NCBI GenBank assembly: GCA_031263445.1
Contig: JAISFV010000012.1
Span: 1-35,707 of the forward strand
Length of the DNA stretch: 35,707 nt
Direction: 5' to 3'
From: Synergistaceae bacterium
Lineage (GTDB): Bacteria; Synergistota; Synergistia; Synergistales; Synergistaceae
A model generated the notes under the pieces. It was not told where the DNA came from and made no database searches. It worked only from the letters and a program-made list of their open reading frames with translations. Position 1 is the stretch's first letter, and each line of letters begins with the position of its first letter. The position numbers and the translations under genes were made by a program. Below are positions 5,873-31,916 of this stretch, one piece after another.

Positions 5873-6517
5873 CTACAGGCTCTTCTGTTCCGGCAGGTCG
5901 AAGCCCATTCCGAGGTAATGCGCGTCGCCAAGCAGGTTGAGCCTTGGCGGGTGTCCTGCGCGCAGCTCCAGGACAGAGAGGCTGCAATTGGCTATGAGGA
6001 CGTTCCAGAAACAGGAAAGCGGCATATTCAGATAATGAAAAATGATCATCTTGATCGGGACATCGTGGGACACGACGCAGACATCCCCCCGGTATTTCGA
6101 CGCTAGGAGTTCGGCGGCTGCTACGGCGCGCTTTTCGACGTCGCGGAGCGATTCGCCACCTGCCCCTGGCATGACCACCGTGTGCGGCTCGGCGTGCCAG
6201 AGGTCGAAGAGCCTGGGCCATTGCTCTATGACCTCGCTCGTCAGGCGGGTCTCCCAGTCGCCGTGGCATATCTCGGTCAGCCCTTCCAGCTCCTCTACGA
6301 CAGGGCAGCCGCTCAGCTCCGCGATCTTCCGCGCCGTGACGGACGACCGCCTCAGCGGGCTGGTGGCTACCGCGTCGAAGCGCATGTCCTTCAGGAACTC
6401 GGCTGCCTTCATGCCCTGCTCGTAGCCGCGCTGTGACAGATCCGATTCCTTTTGCCCCTGGAACCGCCCCTCGGCGTTCCACTCGCTCTCCCCGTGTCTT
6501 ACCAGGAACAGCCTCAT
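5873..6517 (-). CDS. Histidine-phosphatase-family enzyme, probable phosphoserine phosphatase
   Basis: The 214-residue protein has the dPGM-like fold: LVRHGESEWN at residues 5-14 (H8 acceptor), SPLRRS near 53-58, the acidic residue in TEICHGDWE (E82) and the second histidine in VVSHD (H151). Such proteins act as phosphoglycerate mutases or general phosphatases. Its start codon overlaps the serA stop by four bases, and it is the last gene of an aminotransferase-serA-phosphatase operon. That argues for hydrolysis of O-phosphoserine, as in the metal-independent phosphoserine phosphatases described in Hydrogenobacter. The segment EPHTV...GGESL and the VSHDVP region resemble that group as I remember it. 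The classical HAD-type SerB is not in the window. Family is certain, substrate inferred. Confidence 0.75.
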   Translation of the reverse strand: MRLFLVRHGESEWNAEGRFQGQKESDLSQRGYEQGMKAAEFLKDMRFDAVATSPLRRSSVTARKIAELSGCPVVEELEGLTEICHGDWETRLTSEVIEQWPRLFDLWHAEPHTVVMPGAGGESLRDVEKRAVAAAELLASKYRGDVCVVSHDVPIKMIIFHYLNMPLSCFWNVLIANCSLSVLELRAGHPPRLNLLGDAHYLGMGFDLPEQKSL

Positions 6518-8157
6518 TTGTCCGGCTCTCCGTTCAATTTCACTGTCGCGGCCCAGATCATGTCCCCGTCCTTTTGCATCTGCGCCAGGAGGTCGTCCGA
6601 TACAGGAGCGTCTATCTGCATGACGGCCAGGGCCAGCCCGCTCGACTCCCTCCGCCCGAGGTTGAAGTTCGCGATGTTGACCGACGAGTCGCCCAGGAGC
6701 TTGCCGATCTTTCCGATCACGCCGGGCCTGTCATGGTTCTGGAATATCAGCAGATTCCCGTGCGGCACGAAGTCCACCCAGTAGTCGTTCATCTTCACGA
6801 TATGCTGCCTGCCCTCTTCCGTGATCGTCCCTGTGAGGGTAGCCACGGCATTTTGCGCCGTCACCTCCACCTCGATCAGGTTTCTGTATGCCTTCGACTC
6901 CCCGGTACCCTCCTCGATGGAGATCCCGCGCTCCTGAGCGAGTATCGGCGCGACCATATAGTTGACCTCGGGGCCGAGCGCTACCTCGAGCAGCCCCTTT
7001 ATGACGGCTATGGTGAAGGGGCGCATCGCGCCTCTGGGGAGGTCGTCCCCGACGAGTGCGTCCCCCCTCAGCATCACGCTGCATTTGCCAGGCGGGCCGT
7101 CGTTCTCGGTGAGCCTCCCGGCGAGTATGCCCATCTTCCGTGCCAGCCGGAGGTAATTTTTCTGCGTGTCGGAGAGCTGCTGCTCCATGAACGGCAGGTT
7201 GACGGCGTGTTCGTAGGGTTCGCCCCGCAGGGCAGCCAGCATGTTCGTGACCGCTATCCGCGCCACCTCCGTCTGCGCCTCGACCGTCGTGGCTCCCAGG
7301 TGAGGCGTCAGGACCACCTTGTCCGCTATCTCGCTGTCGAAGAGCGGGTTGTCGGCGGACGGCGGCTCCTGCGTGAACACGTCGAAAGCCGCGCCTGCGA
7401 TCCTCCCTTCCTTGAGGGCCTGGGCGCATGCAGCCTCGTCCACGATGCCGCCGCGCGCGCAGTTGACGATATACGAGCCGCGCTTCATCGCGCGGATCAT
7501 CTTCTCGTTTATGACGCAGTGCGTCTCCTTCGTGATAGGGACGTGAACGGTGACGACGTCCGCAAGGGAAAGCGCGCCCGCCAGGTCGTCTGCTTTCTGG
7601 ATTCCGGCGTCGGCCATCTTTTTGTCCGGCACGTACGGGTCTAACCCCGTGACCTCCATTCCAAACGCCCTGCATCGGAGCGCCACCTGCATCCCTATCC
7701 TGCCCATCCCTATGACGAGCGCCTTTTTCCCGTTGAGCTGCCTGCCCGTGAAGCGCTTTCTGTCCCACTCGCCGGCCCTGAGCGAGAAGAAGCCGTGCGG
7801 CGTCTTCCTGACGAGCGCCAGCATGAGGGCCATGGTCTGCTCTGCTGCCGCGAGGGTATTGCCCGTGGGGGCGTTTATAACGACGATGCCGCGCCGGCTC
7901 GCCTCCTGTAGGTCCACGTTGTCAACGCCGACCCCGGCGCGCGCTATGACCTTGAGCCTCAGCCCGCTCTCGATAGCCTCCTTGTCCATCGTCGTGCCGC
8001 TGCGCGTTATGATCGCGTCGTATTCGCCCAGGATTTTGTGCAGCTCCGGCTTCGAGAGCCCGGTTTTAACGTCGAGTTCCACGTCGGGCGACTCACGCAG
8101 GATTTTCAACCCCTCGTCGCCCAGCGCCTCTGGCACGAGAACCTTGAATCTGTCCAT
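6514..8157 (-). CDS. serA: D-3-phosphoglycerate dehydrogenase
   Basis: 547 residues, the long form of SerA: N- and C-terminal substrate lobes around a Rossmann NAD domain (GMGRIGMQV from residue 150), then an intervening ASB-type domain (about 320-470) and a C-terminal ACT domain (about 475-540, NHDRPGVIGKIGKLL). Catalytic residues visible are R235 (CARGG), E264 (TQEPP) and H286 (TPHLGA). It oxidises 3-phosphoglycerate to 3-phosphohydroxypyruvate, the first step of serine synthesis. The ACT domain suggests feedback control by serine, known in the family. The upstream aminotransferase stop lies one base before the serA ATG, so translation is probably coupled. Confidence 0.95.
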   Translation of the reverse strand: MDRFKVLVPEALGDEGLKILRESPDVELDVKTGLSKPELHKILGEYDAIITRSGTTMDKEAIESGLRLKVIARAGVGVDNVDLQEASRRGIVVINAPTGNTLAAAEQTMALMLALVRKTPHGFFSLRAGEWDRKRFTGRQLNGKKALVIGMGRIGMQVALRCRAFGMEVTGLDPYVPDKKMADAGIQKADDLAGALSLADVVTVHVPITKETHCVINEKMIRAMKRGSYIVNCARGGIVDEAACAQALKEGRIAGAAFDVFTQEPPSADNPLFDSEIADKVVLTPHLGATTVEAQTEVARIAVTNMLAALRGEPYEHAVNLPFMEQQLSDTQKNYLRLARKMGILAGRLTENDGPPGKCSVMLRGDALVGDDLPRGAMRPFTIAVIKGLLEVALGPEVNYMVAPILAQERGISIEEGTGESKAYRNLIEVEVTAQNAVATLTGTITEEGRQHIVKMNDYWVDFVPHGNLLIFQNHDRPGVIGKIGKLLGDSSVNIANFNLGRRESSGLALAVMQIDAPVSDDLLAQMQKDGDMIWAATVKLNGEPDK

Positions 8158-8158
8158 C

Positions 8159-9289
8159 TTACTTTTCCTCCCAGACTGCGAGCGCGTCCTTCATGAAGTC
8201 GCGGACACCCGCGCTGCCCGCTCCCAGGGCGGCGTAAAGGCAGCCAAGCGCGAGCGAGATCTCAGGCCACCTCACGTCGTGGTAGTGCGACATCCTGATT
8301 ATCTTCCCCTTCAGTTCGCCCTGCCCGCCGGCCGGCTCTACCCCTGCGGCCTTGAGTGCCTTCGAGACTGCCGCGATATCCCCGGACGGTGATGAGAAGG
8401 CCGTGACCCCGGGCGAGCGGAAATTCTCGTCCTTGACGAGCAGGCTGAAGCCTAGCGACTCTATCCCTGCGGCAAGGGAACGGGCCGCGCGGCTGCGGAG
8501 GCTGAACCAGCCGTCGATCAGTATCTCGTCCAGCGCCGCGTCCAGGGCGTAGTACAGTGACACGGGCGGCGTGTACGGGTTCTCTGGGGCGTCCTTGTCC
8601 AGCAGTTTCTTCTGGCGGGCGAGGTCGAAGTAGTAGCTCGCGCACTTCCTCTTGGAAACGGCCTCCCAGCCCCTCTCGGACAGCCAGACGAGCCCCAGTC
8701 CGGGTGGCGTGAGCAGCCCCTTCTGCGAAGCGGTGGCGAGGCCGTCTATGCCCCACTCTTCCGGGAAACAGGGCATCGCCCCGACAGAGCTCACGCCGTC
8801 CACCAAGATCAGCGGACGCTTGTCCTTGGGGATGGCGGCGATTATTTTGTCGATGGGGTTGAAGACCCCGGTGGACGTCTCGTTCTGCGTGAGCAGCAGG
8901 ACGCCGCAACCCGGGTTGCGCTCCACGGCGGCTGCGGCCACATCAGGTGTAACGCCCTCGCCTAACGGGACGTCCACGCTCACGATTTTCGCGCCGTAGA
9001 GCGCCGTTATCTCGCGGAATCGGTCACCGAAGACCCCGCAGGAGACGGAGAGGGCCGTCACGTCCGGCCCGGTGAAGTTAGCGGCCAGGGCTTCGAGCGC
9101 GCCTGTCCCGGAGGACGGGAACAACACGGTCCTCCCGCCGCTTCGTAACAGCCGCGCCAGCTTATCCTCTATGGAGAGGAAGAGGCCGGAGAAATCGCCC
9201 CCCCTATGACCTATGAGCGGCCTTGCCTGGCTGATGGAGACGTTCGGGGACACCGGGACCGGCCCTGGGGTCATCAAGTACCTGTTCAT
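8159..9289 (-). CDS. Class V aminotransferase, probable phosphoserine aminotransferase
   Basis: 376 residues of the alanine-glyoxylate/serine-pyruvate aminotransferase family. The N-terminus has the family TPGPVPV signature (7-13), SSGTGALEA (59-67) contacts the PLP phosphate, D164 (LVDGVSS) binds the pyridine nitrogen and K190 (SQKGLL) is the Schiff-base lysine. The family can interconvert serine with hydroxypyruvate or glycine with glyoxylate. Being first in an operon with serA, and lacking a separate serC here, it most likely converts 3-phosphohydroxypyruvate to phosphoserine, a role reported for related class V enzymes in methanogens. ATG start at 9287-9289 with GAGGAGG nine bases upstream. 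Expression is probably governed by the leader at 9373-9716. Family is certain; substrate is inferred from context. Confidence 0.82.
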   Translation of the reverse strand: MNRYLMTPGPVPVSPNVSISQARPLIGHRGGDFSGLFLSIEDKLARLLRSGGRTVLFPSSGTGALEALAANFTGPDVTALSVSCGVFGDRFREITALYGAKIVSVDVPLGEGVTPDVAAAAVERNPGCGVLLLTQNETSTGVFNPIDKIIAAIPKDKRPLILVDGVSSVGAMPCFPEEWGIDGLATASQKGLLTPPGLGLVWLSERGWEAVSKRKCASYYFDLARQKKLLDKDAPENPYTPPVSLYYALDAALDEILIDGWFSLRSRAARSLAAGIESLGFSLLVKDENFRSPGVTAFSSPSGDIAAVSKALKAAGVEPAGGQGELKGKIIRMSHYHDVRWPEISLALGCLYAALGAGSAGVRDFMKDALAVWEEK

Positions 9290-9375: not shown

Positions 9376-9408
9376 AAAAAAAGCGAGGATCCTTTCGGTT
9401 CCTCGCTT
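9376..9408 (-). terminator. Intrinsic terminator (attenuator) ahead of the serine operon
   Basis: On the minus strand, AAGCGAGGA (9408-9400) pairs over nine base pairs with TCCTCGCTT (9389-9381) around a ten-base loop, whose CC/GG can extend the stem. Seven T's (plus-strand A's at 9376-9382) begin within and follow the 3' arm. It lies about 85 bp upstream of the aminotransferase start, downstream of the leader ORF, with no full-length gene in front of it. That position fits an attenuator rather than a gene-end terminator. Confidence 0.85.
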
Positions 9409-9495
9409 CGTAAACTCGATGAAATCTTTTTTGTTAAATCGAGCGGACAGTCAGATCAGGGTTTTCGCATTGAACCAAACTCTCCGAGGCGAGGA
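9400..9495 (-). promoter_or_regulatory. Proposed antiterminator pairing of the serine attenuator
   Basis: Minus-strand TCCTCGC at 9495-9489, inside the leader ORF, is an exact copy of the terminator's 3' arm. It can therefore pair with the terminator's 5' arm GCGAGGA at 9406-9400. One mismatch then three more pairs (9487-9485 with 9410-9408) extend it to ten pairs. A ribosome stalled on the serine run would leave 9495-9485 free to form this antiterminator. A ribosome running on to the stop at 9456 would cover it. Pairing is visible in sequence; the switching mechanism is inferred. Confidence 0.6.
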
Positions 9496-9599
9496 GCATA
9501 AAGAAGCCGTGTGGCTCCGCTAGAGGCGCCGGAGCAACTGGAGGAGGACCGTCCTATCCCGAAACACGAAACGCCGAACGACCTGATGATCAAGCCCAC
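9456..9599 (-). CDS. Serine-rich leader peptide of the serine operon
   Basis: A 47-codon ORF on the minus strand from GTG (9599-9597) to TGA (9458-9456). GGAGGAGGA (9616-9608) lies eight bases before the start, an excellent ribosome binding site; a TTG two codons later is an alternative start. Residues 18-27 read SSSSCSGASS: seven serines in ten residues using TCC, AGT, TCT and AGC, so both serine codon boxes are sampled. Ten of 47 residues are serine overall. It lies between a strong promoter and an intrinsic terminator ahead of the aminotransferase-serA-phosphatase operon. The layout is that of leader peptides such as those of trp and his operons: stalling at serine codons when charged tRNA-Ser is scarce would favour antitermination. 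The codon run, binding site and terminator are direct observations; the mechanism is inference. Confidence 0.78.
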   Translation of the reverse strand: MGLIIRSFGVSCFGIGRSSSSCSGASSGATRLLYAPRLGEFGSMRKP

Positions 9600-9722
9600 T
9601 GACTTCTTCCTCCTCCGCGCAGAAAAAATTTAAATCCTGTCAGGATCCGTGTCCTAAAAACCTTAAACGTTGTTTCTGTATTTTAATCATCGACTCCTAG
9701 GCGCGATGCTTTGAATGGTGAA

Positions 9723-9751
9723 CTTATACCATCAATATGGCGGTATGTCAA
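9723..9751 (-). promoter_or_regulatory. Strong sigma70 promoter for the serine leader and operon
   Basis: On the minus strand a perfect TTGACA (9751-9746) is followed after exactly 17 bp by TATAAG (9728-9723). Transcription would start near 9716, giving about 115 nt before the leader ORF. The adjoining rpsF promoter fires in the other direction and starts about 65 bp away, so the two do not overlap. Confidence 0.8.
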
Positions 9752-27344: not shown

Positions 27345-27504
27345 ATGTCGGTTGATGATATCGGGAGAGATCGCGCTTGCGCGGCGCCGAAGGTGATCAG
27401 CGAAAACTCTCAGGCGAAAGGACCGGTATCGGACGAAACCCTGGAAAGCCACGCGCTTTGTGGCGCCGAAGAGGCAATCCGCCCGGGCGGAGAATCTTTC
27501 AGGC
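27345..27504 (+). ncRNA. Tandem glycine riboswitch
   Basis: Two aptamers in series show the signatures of this class. Aptamer one has ATCGGGAGAG near 27360, GCGCCGAAGGTG near 27388 and CTCTCAGGCGAAAGGACC near 27408. Aptamer two has ACCCTGGAAAG near 27438, GGCGCCGAAGAGGCAA near 27462 and TCTTTCAGGCAAA near 27496. It lies directly ahead of gcvT, as in many bacteria, and is known to act as an on-switch when glycine is abundant. The terminator immediately after it is the expression platform. Confidence 0.93.
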
Positions 27505-27550
27505 AAAAAAACAGGGGCGCGCCAGCTAATGGATGCGTCCCTGTTTTTTA
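27505..27550 (+). terminator. Terminator hairpin of the glycine riboswitch
   Basis: AAAAAACAGGG (27506-27516) pairs exactly with CCCTGTTTTTT (27539-27549), and inner GCGCG/TGCGT pairs extend the stem to about 16. The six T's serve as 3' arm and U-tract. Part of its 5' arm adjoins the second aptamer, so glycine binding can compete with terminator formation. Confidence 0.88.
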
Positions 27551-27577
27551 TTGGGCGAAAGATGAGGAGGAGTGAGC

Positions 27578-28690
27578 ATGTCAGGCCACGCGAACACAGG
27601 CGAGAACGAGAAACGCACACCGCTTTACGGCAGTCACGTCAAACTGGGCGGCAGGATGGTGCCCTTTGCCGGCTATCTGCTCCCGGTTCAGTATTCAGGG
27701 GTGATAGCCGAGCACATGGCTGTCAGGACCAAGGCAGGGCTGTTCGACGTATCCCACATGGGCGAGGTCATGTTTACGGGGAAAGACGCGCTCCTGAACC
27801 TGCAGAGGCTCCTGTCGAACGACTTCCGGGGGATGCCGGACGGCAGGGTGCGCTATTCGCTCCTGTGCAACGAGTCAGGCGGCGTCGTGGATGACTTGAT
27901 CGTCTACCGCTACGGCGACGAGAAGTATCTGCTCGTGGTGAACGCCGCTAACAGGGAGAAGGACGTGTCGTGGATGAGGGAGCGCCTCTCGGGCAGCGTG
28001 ACCATGGAAGACATATCAGACGACATAGCCCAGATCGCCCTCCAGGGTCCGGCGTCAGACGCAATCCTGCGGAGGCTCGCCAGCGAATCCGGGATGCCGG
28101 AGAAGTATTACACGTTCGTAGACGACGTCGCAGTGGGCGGCGTGAAGTGCCTCGTGTCGCAGACGGGCTACACCGGCGAGAAGGGTTACGAGCTTTACAT
28201 GCCGAATGCCGACGCGCCCGGGCTTTGGGAAAAACTCCTGGACGCCGGCGCGGATTTCGGACTAGTCCCTGCGGGGCTAGGCGCGCGCGACACGCTCCGC
28301 CTGGAGGCGGGGATGCCGCTCTACGGACACGAGATGGACGACGGCGTAACGCCTTTCGAGGCTGGCTTGGCGTTCGGGGTGAAGATGGGCAAGGATGATT
28401 TCATAGGGAAATCCGCGCTAGCCGGGCGTCTGAATCCTAGGAGGAAGCGGGTCGGCCTCAAGATCACCGGCAGAGGCATCGCGCGCGGGAACGAGTCCGT
28501 CTACGCGGACGGCGCCGCTGTCGGCAGGACCACGTCCGGCACGCACTGCCCGTTTCTAGGGTATCCGGTCGCGATGGCGCTGCTCGACGAACCGCACACA
28601 CTGGCCGGCTCGACGGCGGAAGTCGACGTCAGGGGACGCCGGATAGCGGCGGAGGTAGTCCCGATCCCATTCTATAAAAGAGCTAAGTAA
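27578..28690 (+). CDS. gcvT: Glycine cleavage system T-protein (aminomethyltransferase)
   Basis: 370 residues. It begins KRTPLYGSHVKLGGRMVPFAGYLLPVQYSG and contains RTKAGLFDVSHMGEV, folate-binding YTGEKGYELYM and GLGARDTLRLEAGMPLYGHE, all T-protein signatures. It transfers the aminomethyl carbon from H-protein to tetrahydrofolate and releases ammonia. The ATG at 27578 has AGGAGG seven bases upstream; the GTG two codons earlier is too close to that site. First gene of the gcv operon under the riboswitch. Confidence 0.96.
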   Translation: MSGHANTGENEKRTPLYGSHVKLGGRMVPFAGYLLPVQYSGVIAEHMAVRTKAGLFDVSHMGEVMFTGKDALLNLQRLLSNDFRGMPDGRVRYSLLCNESGGVVDDLIVYRYGDEKYLLVVNAANREKDVSWMRERLSGSVTMEDISDDIAQIALQGPASDAILRRLASESGMPEKYYTFVDDVAVGGVKCLVSQTGYTGEKGYELYMPNADAPGLWEKLLDAGADFGLVPAGLGARDTLRLEAGMPLYGHEMDDGVTPFEAGLAFGVKMGKDDFIGKSALAGRLNPRRKRVGLKITGRGIARGNESVYADGAAVGRTTSGTHCPFLGYPVAMALLDEPHTLAGSTAEVDVRGRRIAAEVVPIPFYKRAK

Positions 28691-28777: not shown

Positions 28778-29158
28778 ATGGAATTTCCGTCAGACCTTTC
28801 ATATTCAAAGACGCATGAGTGGGTACAGGATACCGGCAGCCGGACGGCTAGGATAGGCATCACGGACTACGCGCAGAACGAGCTGGGGGATATCGTCTTC
28901 GTCAATCTCCCGGAGGCAGGGGACGAAGCGTCGAAAGGGGAGAGGATCGCCGACGTGGAGTCCGTCAAGGCCGTGTCGGACATCATAAGCCCGCTCTCCG
29001 GCGTTGTAAAGGCCGTCAACAAGGACGTGGCCGACAACCCGGAGCTTATGAACTCGGATCCTTACAAGGCGTGGCTCATCGAGATAGGGGATATCTCAGA
29101 TCACGAGGAACTGCTGGACGCGGATGGCTACAAGGCGCTCTGCGAAGAGGAGGGGTAG
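28778..29158 (+). CDS. gcvH: Glycine cleavage system H-protein
   Basis: 126 residues, normal for the lipoyl carrier. LSYSKTHEWV opens the fold, and ADVESVKAVSDIISPLSG carries the lipoylated lysine K64, flanked by the hairpin turn. It shuttles the methylamine group between the P, T and L proteins. Strong AAGGAGGAG site eight bases before the ATG. No lpd (L-protein) gene is in the window, so dihydrolipoamide dehydrogenase must be elsewhere. Confidence 0.97.
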   Translation: MEFPSDLSYSKTHEWVQDTGSRTARIGITDYAQNELGDIVFVNLPEAGDEASKGERIADVESVKAVSDIISPLSGVVKAVNKDVADNPELMNSDPYKAWLIEIGDISDHEELLDADGYKALCEEEG

Positions 29159-29160
29159 CG

Positions 29161-30474
29161 GTGGCATACTACGTCCCGTCCACAGAAGCCGAACAGAAAG
29201 AGATGCTGGCCGCAGTCGGCGTCGCGACCTTCGACGATCTCTTCGCGGCGGTGCCTGGCTCTCTCAAAATCAAGGGGCTGGACATGCCGGATGGCCTCTC
29301 CGAGTTCGAGGTTCGCGGCAAAATCGAGGGGATTTCCCATAAAAACGTGGCCTTCAAGTCCATTTTCAGGGGCGCTGGCGCGTATAACCACTATATCCCG
29401 GCGCTTGTAAAGCAGATAGCCTCGAAGGAGGAATTCGTCACGGCGTATACGCCGTACCAGGCAGAGATAAGCCAGGGCGTCCTGCAGTCGATCTTTGAGT
29501 TTCAGACCATGATGTGCGAGCTGACGGGGCTGGACGCCTCCAACGCGTCCGTCTACGACGGCGCTTCCGCCGCTGCGGAGGCGGTTGGCATGTGCCGTGA
29601 CAGGAAGCGTTCCGCCGTCTTGGTCTCGGAGTCCGTGAACCCGGCCGTGCTGGAGACGATAAAGACCTACTGCTACGCGGCAGGCGCGGGAGTGCGGCCC
29701 GTGCCGCTCAAGAATGGCGTCACCGACGCGGGCGCGCTGGCGTCGATGCTGGATGAGTCTGCCGCCTGCATTTACGTCCAGCAGCCGAACTTTTACGGGC
29801 TGATCGAGGACGCGGAGAAGCTGGGGGAGATCGCGCACTCGCGCGGGGCCAGGTTCGTGACGGGCGTCAACCCGGTCGCTTCCGCGATACTTAAGACCCC
29901 TGCGGAGTGCGGCGCGGACATTGCCTGCGGGGACGCGCAGCCGTTTGGTATGCCGCTCGCCTTCGGAGGCCCGTACCTCGGGTTTATGACGGCCTCCGGC
30001 GAGATGGCGCGGAAGCTCCCGGGCAGGATAGCAGGGCAGACCAGGGACATCGACGGCAAGCGGGCGTTCGTCCTCACCCTTCAGGCAAGGGAGCAGCACA
30101 TAAGAAGGGAGAAGGCGTCTTCCAATATCTGCTCCAATCAGGCGCTCTGTGCCCTTACTGCTTCCGCCTACCTCACGGTGCTTGGCCCTGACGGGCTGCG
30201 GGGCGTAGCCGAACTGTGCCTGTCCAAGGCTCGCTACGCCGCCCGTAGGATAAGCGCTATAAAGGGGTTTGAGTTGCTCTATCCCGGCGAGTTCTTCCAC
30301 GAGTTCGTGACGGCATGCCCGTGCGACGCCACGGCTGTCGAAAAACGCCTCGCCGGGCGCGGCATCCTGGGAGGGCTGCCCGTCAGCGGCGGCATCCTGT
30401 GGTGCGTCACAGAGATGAACACGAAAGAGCAGATAGACGAGCTCGCAGCGGTCTTGGAGGAGGTAGCCAGATGA
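29161..30474 (+). CDS. gcvPA: Glycine dehydrogenase (decarboxylating) subunit 1
   Basis: 437 residues, the alpha half of the split P-protein. Signatures are FRGAGAYNHYIPALVKQI, TAYTPYQAEISQGVLQSIFEFQTM split over strands, DGASAAAEA and a late GQTRDIDGKRAFVLTLQAREQHIRREKA stretch. The PLP-binding subunit is encoded next. GTG start at 29161, two bases past gcvH, with GAGGAGGGG upstream. Together with subunit 2 it decarboxylates glycine and loads H-protein. Confidence 0.95.
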   Translation: MAYYVPSTEAEQKEMLAAVGVATFDDLFAAVPGSLKIKGLDMPDGLSEFEVRGKIEGISHKNVAFKSIFRGAGAYNHYIPALVKQIASKEEFVTAYTPYQAEISQGVLQSIFEFQTMMCELTGLDASNASVYDGASAAAEAVGMCRDRKRSAVLVSESVNPAVLETIKTYCYAAGAGVRPVPLKNGVTDAGALASMLDESAACIYVQQPNFYGLIEDAEKLGEIAHSRGARFVTGVNPVASAILKTPAECGADIACGDAQPFGMPLAFGGPYLGFMTASGEMARKLPGRIAGQTRDIDGKRAFVLTLQAREQHIRREKASSNICSNQALCALTASAYLTVLGPDGLRGVAELCLSKARYAARRISAIKGFELLYPGEFFHEFVTACPCDATAVEKRLAGRGILGGLPVSGGILWCVTEMNTKEQIDELAAVLEEVAR

Positions 30475-31916
30475 AGCTGAATTTTGAGAAGAGCAGGGAA
30501 GGGCGCGCCTTCCCCGTATTGCCGCAGCTCGACGTCCCTAAGGATGATTTGCCCGACGGTTTCCTCAGAAAGAGTCCGCCGCGTCTGCCGCAGATGGCCC
30601 AGCCCGATATCTCGCGGCATTACACCGAGCTGGCGAAGCGGACCCACGGCGTGAACGACGGGTTCTATCCGCTTGGCTCCTGCACGATGAAGTACAATCC
30701 GAAGCTGAACGACGAGATGGCTGCCCTGCCCGGTTTCACGGGCATCCACCCGCTCCAGCCGCCTGAAACCGCTCAGGGGTGCCTTGAGGTCCTGTTTGCC
30801 GCAGAAAAGCTGCTATGCGAGATCACCGGCATGGACGCCATGACGTTCCAGCCAGCGGCAGGGGCGCACGGCGAGTTCACCGGCGTCCTTCTGATAAAGG
30901 CGTGGCACGACTCCAGGGGCGACAAGAAACGCTCGAAAATCATCGTCCCCGACTCCGCGCACGGTACGAACCCGGCGACGGCCAGCATGACCGGCTATCA
31001 GGTGGTGAACGTCCCGTCGGACGCGGACGGCGGGGTGGACATGGCGGAGCTCAGGAAGGCTGCGGGGGATGACACGGCGGGCCTCATGCTCACGAACCCG
31101 AATACGCTTGGCATCTTCGACAAGAACATACTGGAAATCACCAGGGTCGTCCACGAGGCGGGCGGGTTAAATTACTACGACGGCGCTAACCTGAACGCCG
31201 TGATGGGCATAGCGCGCCCCGGCGACATGGGCTTTGACGTGGTTCACCTGAACCTGCACAAGACCTTCTCGACGCCGCACGGCGGGGGAGGGCCGGGTTC
31301 CGGCGCCGTCGGCTGCAAGGCGCGGCTCGAGCCTTTCCTGCCCAAGCCCCGGGTCGTCCGCGACAGAGAAGGCTTCGCCTTTGCGGATCCCGAACGCAGC
31401 GTGGGCAGCGTCAAGGCTTTCTACGGGAACTTCCTCGTAACGCTGCGCGCCCTGGTTTACATGCTCACGCTCGGCGCGGGCGGTTTGCGTGACGCTGCGA
31501 GGAATGCCGTCCTGAACGCGAACTACATGATGAAGGGCCTGTCCGGTGACTACGACGTTGCATACCCAGGGATATGCATGCACGAATTTGTCCTGACGCT
31601 CGAAAAACTCAAGAAGGAGCGCGGCGTCTCGGCGATGGACGTAGCCAAGTCGATGCTGGACTACGGCATGCATCCGCCGACGATGTATTTCCCCCTGATC
31701 GTGAAGGAAGCCCTGATGATCGAGCCGACCGAGACCGAGTCGCGCGAGACGCTCGACCGAGCTATCGCCGTCCTCCGCGAGATCCGCGCGCGCGCCGACG
31801 ACGACCCGGGGTCCCTGCACGACGCCCCGCTTCACACGCCTGTCCGCAGGCTCGACGAGGTGGGTGCCGCGAGGCACCCGGTGCTGAAATATAATTTCGA
31901 CGAGGCGCTTGATTAG
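30471..31916 (+). CDS. gcvPB: Glycine dehydrogenase (decarboxylating) subunit 2
   Basis: 481 residues, the PLP-binding beta half of the split P-protein. LGSCTMKYNPKLND, AGAHGEFTGVLLIKAWH, PDSAHGTNPATASMTGY and HLNLHKTFSTPHGGGGPG with Schiff-base K264 are all recognisable. Start ATG at 30471 overlaps the gcvPA stop (ATGA). It ends the gcv operon. The split form is typical of many anaerobes and archaea, unlike the fused protein of E. coli. Confidence 0.96.
   Translation: MKLNFEKSREGRAFPVLPQLDVPKDDLPDGFLRKSPPRLPQMAQPDISRHYTELAKRTHGVNDGFYPLGSCTMKYNPKLNDEMAALPGFTGIHPLQPPETAQGCLEVLFAAEKLLCEITGMDAMTFQPAAGAHGEFTGVLLIKAWHDSRGDKKRSKIIVPDSAHGTNPATASMTGYQVVNVPSDADGGVDMAELRKAAGDDTAGLMLTNPNTLGIFDKNILEITRVVHEAGGLNYYDGANLNAVMGIARPGDMGFDVVHLNLHKTFSTPHGGGGPGSGAVGCKARLEPFLPKPRVVRDREGFAFADPERSVGSVKAFYGNFLVTLRALVYMLTLGAGGLRDAARNAVLNANYMMKGLSGDYDVAYPGICMHEFVLTLEKLKKERGVSAMDVAKSMLDYGMHPPTMYFPLIVKEALMIEPTETESRETLDRAIAVLREIRARADDDPGSLHDAPLHTPVRRLDEVGAARHPVLKYNFDEALD

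Follow-up and report, generated by a model that had tools for sequence, protein, structure and literature searches.

Introduction

Leader-peptide attenuators have been described for a short list of amino acids. A 2013 survey gives His, Leu, Thr and Trp as the amino-acid attenuators in Rfam, with Ile/Val and Phe in addition (PMC3766115), and a survey from 2010 records leader peptides as known only from Proteobacteria and Actinobacteria, to which it adds a His case in Firmicutes (PMC2965389). Leader peptides for cysteine have been predicted (PMC1262725, PMC8632094), and serine operons are known either under T-box control (PMC8002221) or with the serC RNA (PMC1273637). Ser-tRNA charging is rapidly lost in E. 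coli (PMC6377232), and serine starvation in B. subtilis leads to higher ribosome density at UCN codons (PMC3862929).

Here we analyse a serine operon of a Synergistaceae bacterium and the region ahead of it, within a stretch of 35,707 nucleotides (contig JAISFV010000012.1) that we refer to as the window. A preliminary description of this DNA held that there is no established serine leader peptide of this type, a statement that stands for the literature searched: we found no description of a serine leader peptide, nor of the presence of one across Synergistales, with subscription literature and supplements beyond our reach, and the main text of a study of intergenic regions that include those of Thermovirga lienii, a member of Synergistota, names no serine uORF (PMC6429828). 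The locus would hence represent a known mechanism with a new specificity, in a new phylum.

Results

The operon and its surroundings

The operon and all elements of its leader lie on the minus strand. The first gene (8159..9289) encodes a class-V aminotransferase (Pfam PF00266; closest solved chain 2dr1, a 'hypothetical serine aminotransferase'), which likely carries out the phosphoserine aminotransferase step. It is followed by serA (6514..8157), encoding a D-3-phosphoglycerate dehydrogenase with intervening and ACT domains (TIGR01327, 577 bits against a cut-off of 454), and by a gene for a histidine-family phosphatase (5873..6517; PF00300; closest solved chain 4ij5, phosphoserine phosphatase 1). 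The best relative of the latter is the phosphoserine phosphatase PspA, and NF045917 is its top match but falls under the cut-off of that model; the protein is likely a phosphoserine phosphatase of the PspA type. Pfam, TIGR01327 and the closest solved chains thus bear out the aminotransferase-serA-phosphatase operon that had been read from the open reading frames.

The same assembly holds a second aminotransferase-serA pair (L034, G000:C26:304-1431), 74-76% identical to the pair in the window and preceded by a Ser leader of its own; it resembles genus g11 and may represent contamination or a second strain. Elsewhere in the window, two matches to RF00504 mark a tandem glycine riboswitch at 27352-27516 on the plus strand, and the ORFs just downstream of it (27572-28690, 29071-30474 and 30315-31916) are read as the glycine cleavage genes gcvT, gcvPA and gcvPB. 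With a glycine riboswitch before gcv-type genes, both the making of serine and the breakdown of glycine would be under RNA control in the window. Neither the T-box leader (RF00230) nor the serC RNA element (RF00517) gave a covariance-model match in the window.

Architecture of the leader

Direct reading of the region upstream of the aminotransferase agrees in coordinates and description with the promoter, ribosome-binding site and 47-codon ORF first reported for it. A sigma-70-type promoter consists of a -35 element TTGACA (9751-9746), a 17-nt spacer and a -10 element TATAAG (9728-9723), and promoters of this TTGACA/TATAAG type are also found upstream of the leader in many relatives. Transcription is predicted to start near 9716, which leaves a 5' leader of about 117 nt before the ORF. 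The Shine-Dalgarno sequence GGAGGAGGA (9608..9616) is placed 8 nt upstream of the GTG start of the ORF (9456..9599), which ends in a TGA stop (9458-9456) and translates as MGLIIRSFGVSCFGIGRSSSSCSGASSGATRLLYAPRLGEFGSMRKP (47 aa). The run SSSSCSGASS (9548-9519) contains seven Ser in ten codons and, as claimed, draws on both serine codon families, with TCC, TCT, AGT and AGC. The intrinsic terminator ahead of the operon was likewise confirmed: the hairpin AAGCGAGGAACCGAAAGGATCCTCGCTT occupies 9408-9381 (-17.3 kcal/mol, z -6.1) and runs into a tract of seven T's (9382-9376). A consensus scan listed neither the promoter of the window nor the terminator of the leader, because its rules demand a T at position 6 of the -10 element and an unbroken stem, and not because the elements are poor.

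When this 450-nt region of the window was shuffled with its dinucleotides preserved, only 2 of 2000 shuffles gave an ORF with at least seven Ser in ten codons, and the conservation of the leader throughout the order, described below, removes the last doubt about a chance origin.

Conservation across Synergistota

The preliminary description had named the alignment of orthologous upstream regions in related Synergistota genomes as a check, and the lack of a Ser-rich ORF or terminator there as grounds for refutation; its reading came through this comparison supported. We searched for the aminotransferase in 53 genomes of the same family and 188 genomes of the phylum, and read 72 upstream regions. 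A Ser-rich leader ORF followed by a terminator is present in 61 of these 72 loci, from families f1, f4, f5, f6, f8, f9 and f10, the genomes being species representatives among which related ones are not independent; the peptides diverge and the Ser codons stay, as had been anticipated. The terminators behind the 61 ORFs were detected automatically in 57 cases and set by hand in four. Two further loci (G080, G180) reach the end of their contig with the tail of the leader and the terminator still visible. In six Synergistota genomes that lack an upstream aminotransferase, from families f1, f3 and f6, a leader and terminator stand directly before serA (G047; G063, G065, G067, G068; G090), so that leaders span eight families when serA-first operons are counted in; no leader was seen before serA in G016, G017 and G041. 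A MAG of Acetomicrobium hydrogeniformans is among the genomes with the leader (L166).

The leader is absent from nine of the 72 loci. Four of these (G053-G056) belong to another order, G018 and G019 to genus g9 and G145 and G157 to family f6, with G044 as the remaining case. The aminotransferases of G145 (L047) and G157 (L048) are 73-75% identical to that of the window despite belonging to a different family, and were possibly transferred without the leader; immediately upstream of the gene in L047 lie many short direct repeats (CTTATTTA...TTTAGGC). In genus g9 the operons of L035 and L025 (G018, G019) have no Ser leader, and in L035 a strong terminator still stands immediately ahead of the gene, which looks like the loss of the leader peptide or its exchange for another sensor.

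Genus g11 presents a variant of this arrangement. In its loci (L005-L007, L009-L011, L013-L014, L016) the leader ORF starts about where transcription is predicted to start, some -220 to -330 from the aminotransferase, and the distance between the two starts is -1 to +2 nt in nine of the ten genomes with a promoter call. No Shine-Dalgarno sequence was seen for these leaders, and they differ in this layout from the genus of the window, where the 5' leader measures 33-117 nt. From the sequence, the leader peptide of g11 is probably translated from a leaderless mRNA.

Outside this setting Ser leaders were not found: they are missing from the regions upstream of serS, no Ser-rich ORF with a following terminator occurs in the 2.5 kb upstream of any of 51 serA genes of other phyla (0/51), and relatives of the aminotransferase from beyond Synergistota show no Ser leader with a terminator. 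Among the Bacillota relatives of the aminotransferase (L134-L164), a T-box was found in 12 of the 19 loci scanned. Leaders for other amino acids do appear within the phylum. Short ORFs with NWWWQT or NWWWRT and then a terminator precede trpE in three genomes (L252, L255, L256; G182, G073, G176), and Synergistota evidently use leader-peptide attenuation at these trp leaders as well. Upstream of leuA there are a few candidates (L238, L239, L240 and L246, in G078, G185, G095 and G179) with Leu clusters, a conserved PPGTP-type tail and then a terminator, and these short ORFs are possible Leu leaders.

Selection on the serine codons

The best count of Ser per ten codons averages 5.97 in the 61 leaders, compared with 2.73 for shuffled sequences and 2.23 for the antisense strand; since the ORF of each locus was chosen for its Ser content, it is the shuffle and antisense controls that compensate for this choice. 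None of 1220 shuffles reaches seven Ser in ten codons, and the next amino acid after Ser is Gly with a mean best count of 3.1, a value that no other residue exceeds. The +1 and +2 frames of the leaders are not Ser-rich. Between genera the peptides are unrecognisable, and the Ser run persists, as seen in MNKLRALICFGSLCFSSSSSASSTGASSGMGWFPASED, MRRPAYLVFNGISSSSLSSGVSSSCGGSGCHCRSRNVYPMNRENN and LIQMSLFVGRASGSSSSSSSSGWSGRGGLPLPAGGGPL. In alignments within clades, synonymous changes, TCN-to-AGY exchanges included, account for 53% of the codon changes at Ser positions, as against 22% elsewhere. All six Ser codons are used among the 565 in the leaders (TCA 83, TCG 81, AGC 41 and AGT 34 among them), and the share of TCN is 87%, compared with 79% in the aminotransferase genes.

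An antiterminator that competes with the terminator

The preliminary description did not mention an antiterminator, but the leader has one, which co-varies and cannot form together with the terminator. Its 5' side in the window is segment 2 (9473..9496, core TCCTCGC at 9495-9489), which begins 25 nt past the run's last Ser codon, within the ORF and close upstream of the stop. Segment 3 (9399..9421, core GCGAGGA at 9406-9400) can pair either with segment 2, forming the antiterminator, or with segment 4, forming the terminator. Across the loci, segment 2 mostly begins 20-40 nt past the last Ser codon of the run, at or just upstream of the leader stop, and the median distance to the terminator is 97 nt from the end of the Ser run and 42 nt from the leader stop.

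In 30 of 61 loci, segment 2 pairs with the 5' arm of the terminator better than shuffled segments 2 do (p<0.05), with a combined p of about 1e-23 that is inflated by related genomes; in the g28, g36, g55 and g58 loci the duplex is short and no better than chance. When segments were swapped between genera, pairing weakened from -19.2 kcal/mol for the own partner to -15.6 kcal/mol, and none of 3000 swaps matched the mean of the own pairs. Among the best-aligned 15 genomes we observe a triple covariation, in which TCCC becomes TCTC in segment 2, GGGA becomes GAGA in segment 3 and TCCC becomes TCTC in segment 4. A bulged base in one clade shifts the MAFFT alignment of segments 2 and 3 by a single position between clades, and the count of covarying pairs was made on blocks that had been set by hand and checked against the sequences.

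Folding predictions give segment 3 a probability of 0.67 of being paired upstream when the ribosome stalls on the Ser codons, against 0.35 when it sits at the stop. An RNA free of ribosomes still has segment 3 mostly in upstream pairs (0.60), and a protector hairpin of segments 1 and 2 is only weakly indicated by equilibrium folding, where the difference is small (0.56 versus 0.48 in shuffles, p=5e-4); this persistent upstream pairing and the lack of a strong predicted 1:2 protector make termination without translation uncertain. When the complete RNA is folded, three of the four stalled cases examined, that of the window included, favour the terminator as the more stable structure, and antitermination must therefore be kinetic. 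In known attenuators, too, antitermination wins by timing.

Discussion

Our comparison establishes an ORF with an excess of Ser codons that are under selection, a terminator, an antiterminator whose exclusive pairings co-vary, a stop codon near segment 2 with the control codons upstream of it, and a link to the serine operon. By these sequence features, among which the weakly indicated 1:2 hairpin is not counted, the element is a leader-peptide attenuator, and they argue strongly that it works as one; we consider it very probable that it is a serine-specific, ribosome-mediated transcription attenuator that responds to the charging of Ser-tRNA.

The geometry of the window suggests a model for its activity, in which translation of the leader ORF, stalling of the ribosome and a response to serine are deduced from the arrangement of its parts. 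RNA polymerase would start near 9716 and a ribosome would start on the leader ORF at 9599. With ample Ser-tRNA, the ribosome would pass the Ser codons and reach the stop at 9456, covering segment 2; segment 3 would then pair with segment 4, the terminator would form and transcription would end at about 9376. Under a shortage of charged Ser-tRNA, stalling of the ribosome on the Ser run would leave segment 2 free to capture segment 3 ahead of the synthesis of segment 4, and the polymerase would continue into the aminotransferase, serA and phosphatase genes.

Serine may not be the only amino acid that such a leader reads. Just as the thr leader responds to Ile as well as Thr codons, the leader could report the charging of tRNAs for serine and also for glycine and cysteine, which are made from it. 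Besides Met, clear enrichment over dinucleotide shuffles of the leaders is confined to Cys (1.81x), Ser (1.73x) and Gly (1.51x), Cys and Gly occur within or beside the Ser runs (SSCSGASS, SSSCGGSGC), and E. coli ribosomes pause on Ser and Gly codons as charging drops (PMC6377232). Runs of Gly or Cys are rare, however, the Gly codons (GGN) are explicable by hairpins, and Cys is one base away from several Ser codons. We regard a joint readout as unlikely, and its fullest form, an order-wide attenuator that senses Ser, Gly and Cys tRNA charging together and in some genera uses a leaderless leader mRNA, as equally doubtful; if true, one leader would integrate the whole serine family.

Other readings dispense with the serine-sensing ribosome. 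T-boxes stand in 12 of the 19 scanned Bacillota loci of the same aminotransferase's relatives, and Paenibacillus has a proven one at serA (PMC8002221), so that a T-box or metabolite riboswitch might sense tRNA-Ser or serine with the ORF incidental; given that the window leader contains no Rfam family even at E<5, chance matches aside, and that the feature conserved across Synergistota is in-frame Ser codons, this seems barely conceivable. The Ser codons could also be the by-product of a pyrimidine tract that acts at the RNA level, for instance by pairing with the GGAGGAGGA ribosome-binding site in a switch that needs no translation. The tract TCCTCCTCC of the window can indeed pair with that site, and when the leader is folded in full, its minimum-energy structure joins the purine stretch of that site to downstream pyrimidines, but Ser runs elsewhere employ TCA, TCG and AGY, changes in Ser columns are mostly synonymous and the other two frames are free of Ser enrichment, all of which makes such a switch highly improbable. 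Promoter, ORF and terminator do form a complete unit, as an independent small gene or sRNA that lies before the operon by chance would; we give this very little credence, because the peptide diverges freely apart from Ser, the leader tracks the operon even where this begins with serA, and within the leader lies a segment that competes and co-varies with the terminator.

A serine-specific attenuator would add serine to the amino acids with a leader-peptide attenuator and place classic ribosome-mediated attenuation in Synergistota, for which the literature found describes none. The T-box of Bacillota relatives and the leader peptide seen here, on the same kind of operon, would show cleanly how one sensor can replace another. 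Since serine is encoded by six codons from two boxes, the theory of selective tRNA charging (PMC1183508) becomes directly testable on natural variants, of which about 67 leaders with differing TCN/AGY mixes are at hand.

Among described systems, the serA T-box of Bacillota (PMC8002221; RF00230) shares the operon, the proposed input of Ser-tRNA charging and the output of antitermination; it differs in binding uncharged tRNA directly, with no translated leader, and is absent from the window. The serC RNA element of alpha-proteobacteria (RF00517, PMC1273637) is likewise a conserved RNA, before serC-serA, but its pair of short stems conceals the ribosome-binding site, with no leader peptide or terminator described, and it has no match here. 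Serine-codon sensing in sinR of B. subtilis (PMC3862929) also employs TCN codons as sensors of serine depletion, although it works within a coding sequence on protein yield and is no attenuator. The Cys leader peptides before cys operons of Actinobacteria (PMC1262725) and before cysS of Rhodobacterales (uORFC-8-2, PMC8632094) resemble our leader as predicted ORFs with codons of the sensed amino acid, which is cysteine rather than serine, and the actinobacterial ones have no visible terminator. From the trp, his, leu, thr, ilv and phe attenuators of Proteobacteria the system of the window is set apart by its host phylum, by serine with six codons read by two codon boxes, by leader sequences unrelated to the known ones and by a 1:2 protector hairpin that is only weakly predicted. 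With these attenuators it nonetheless shares a short ORF rich in codons for the product and located before the biosynthetic operon, a mutually exclusive antiterminator and terminator, and a leader stop placed to mask segment 2.
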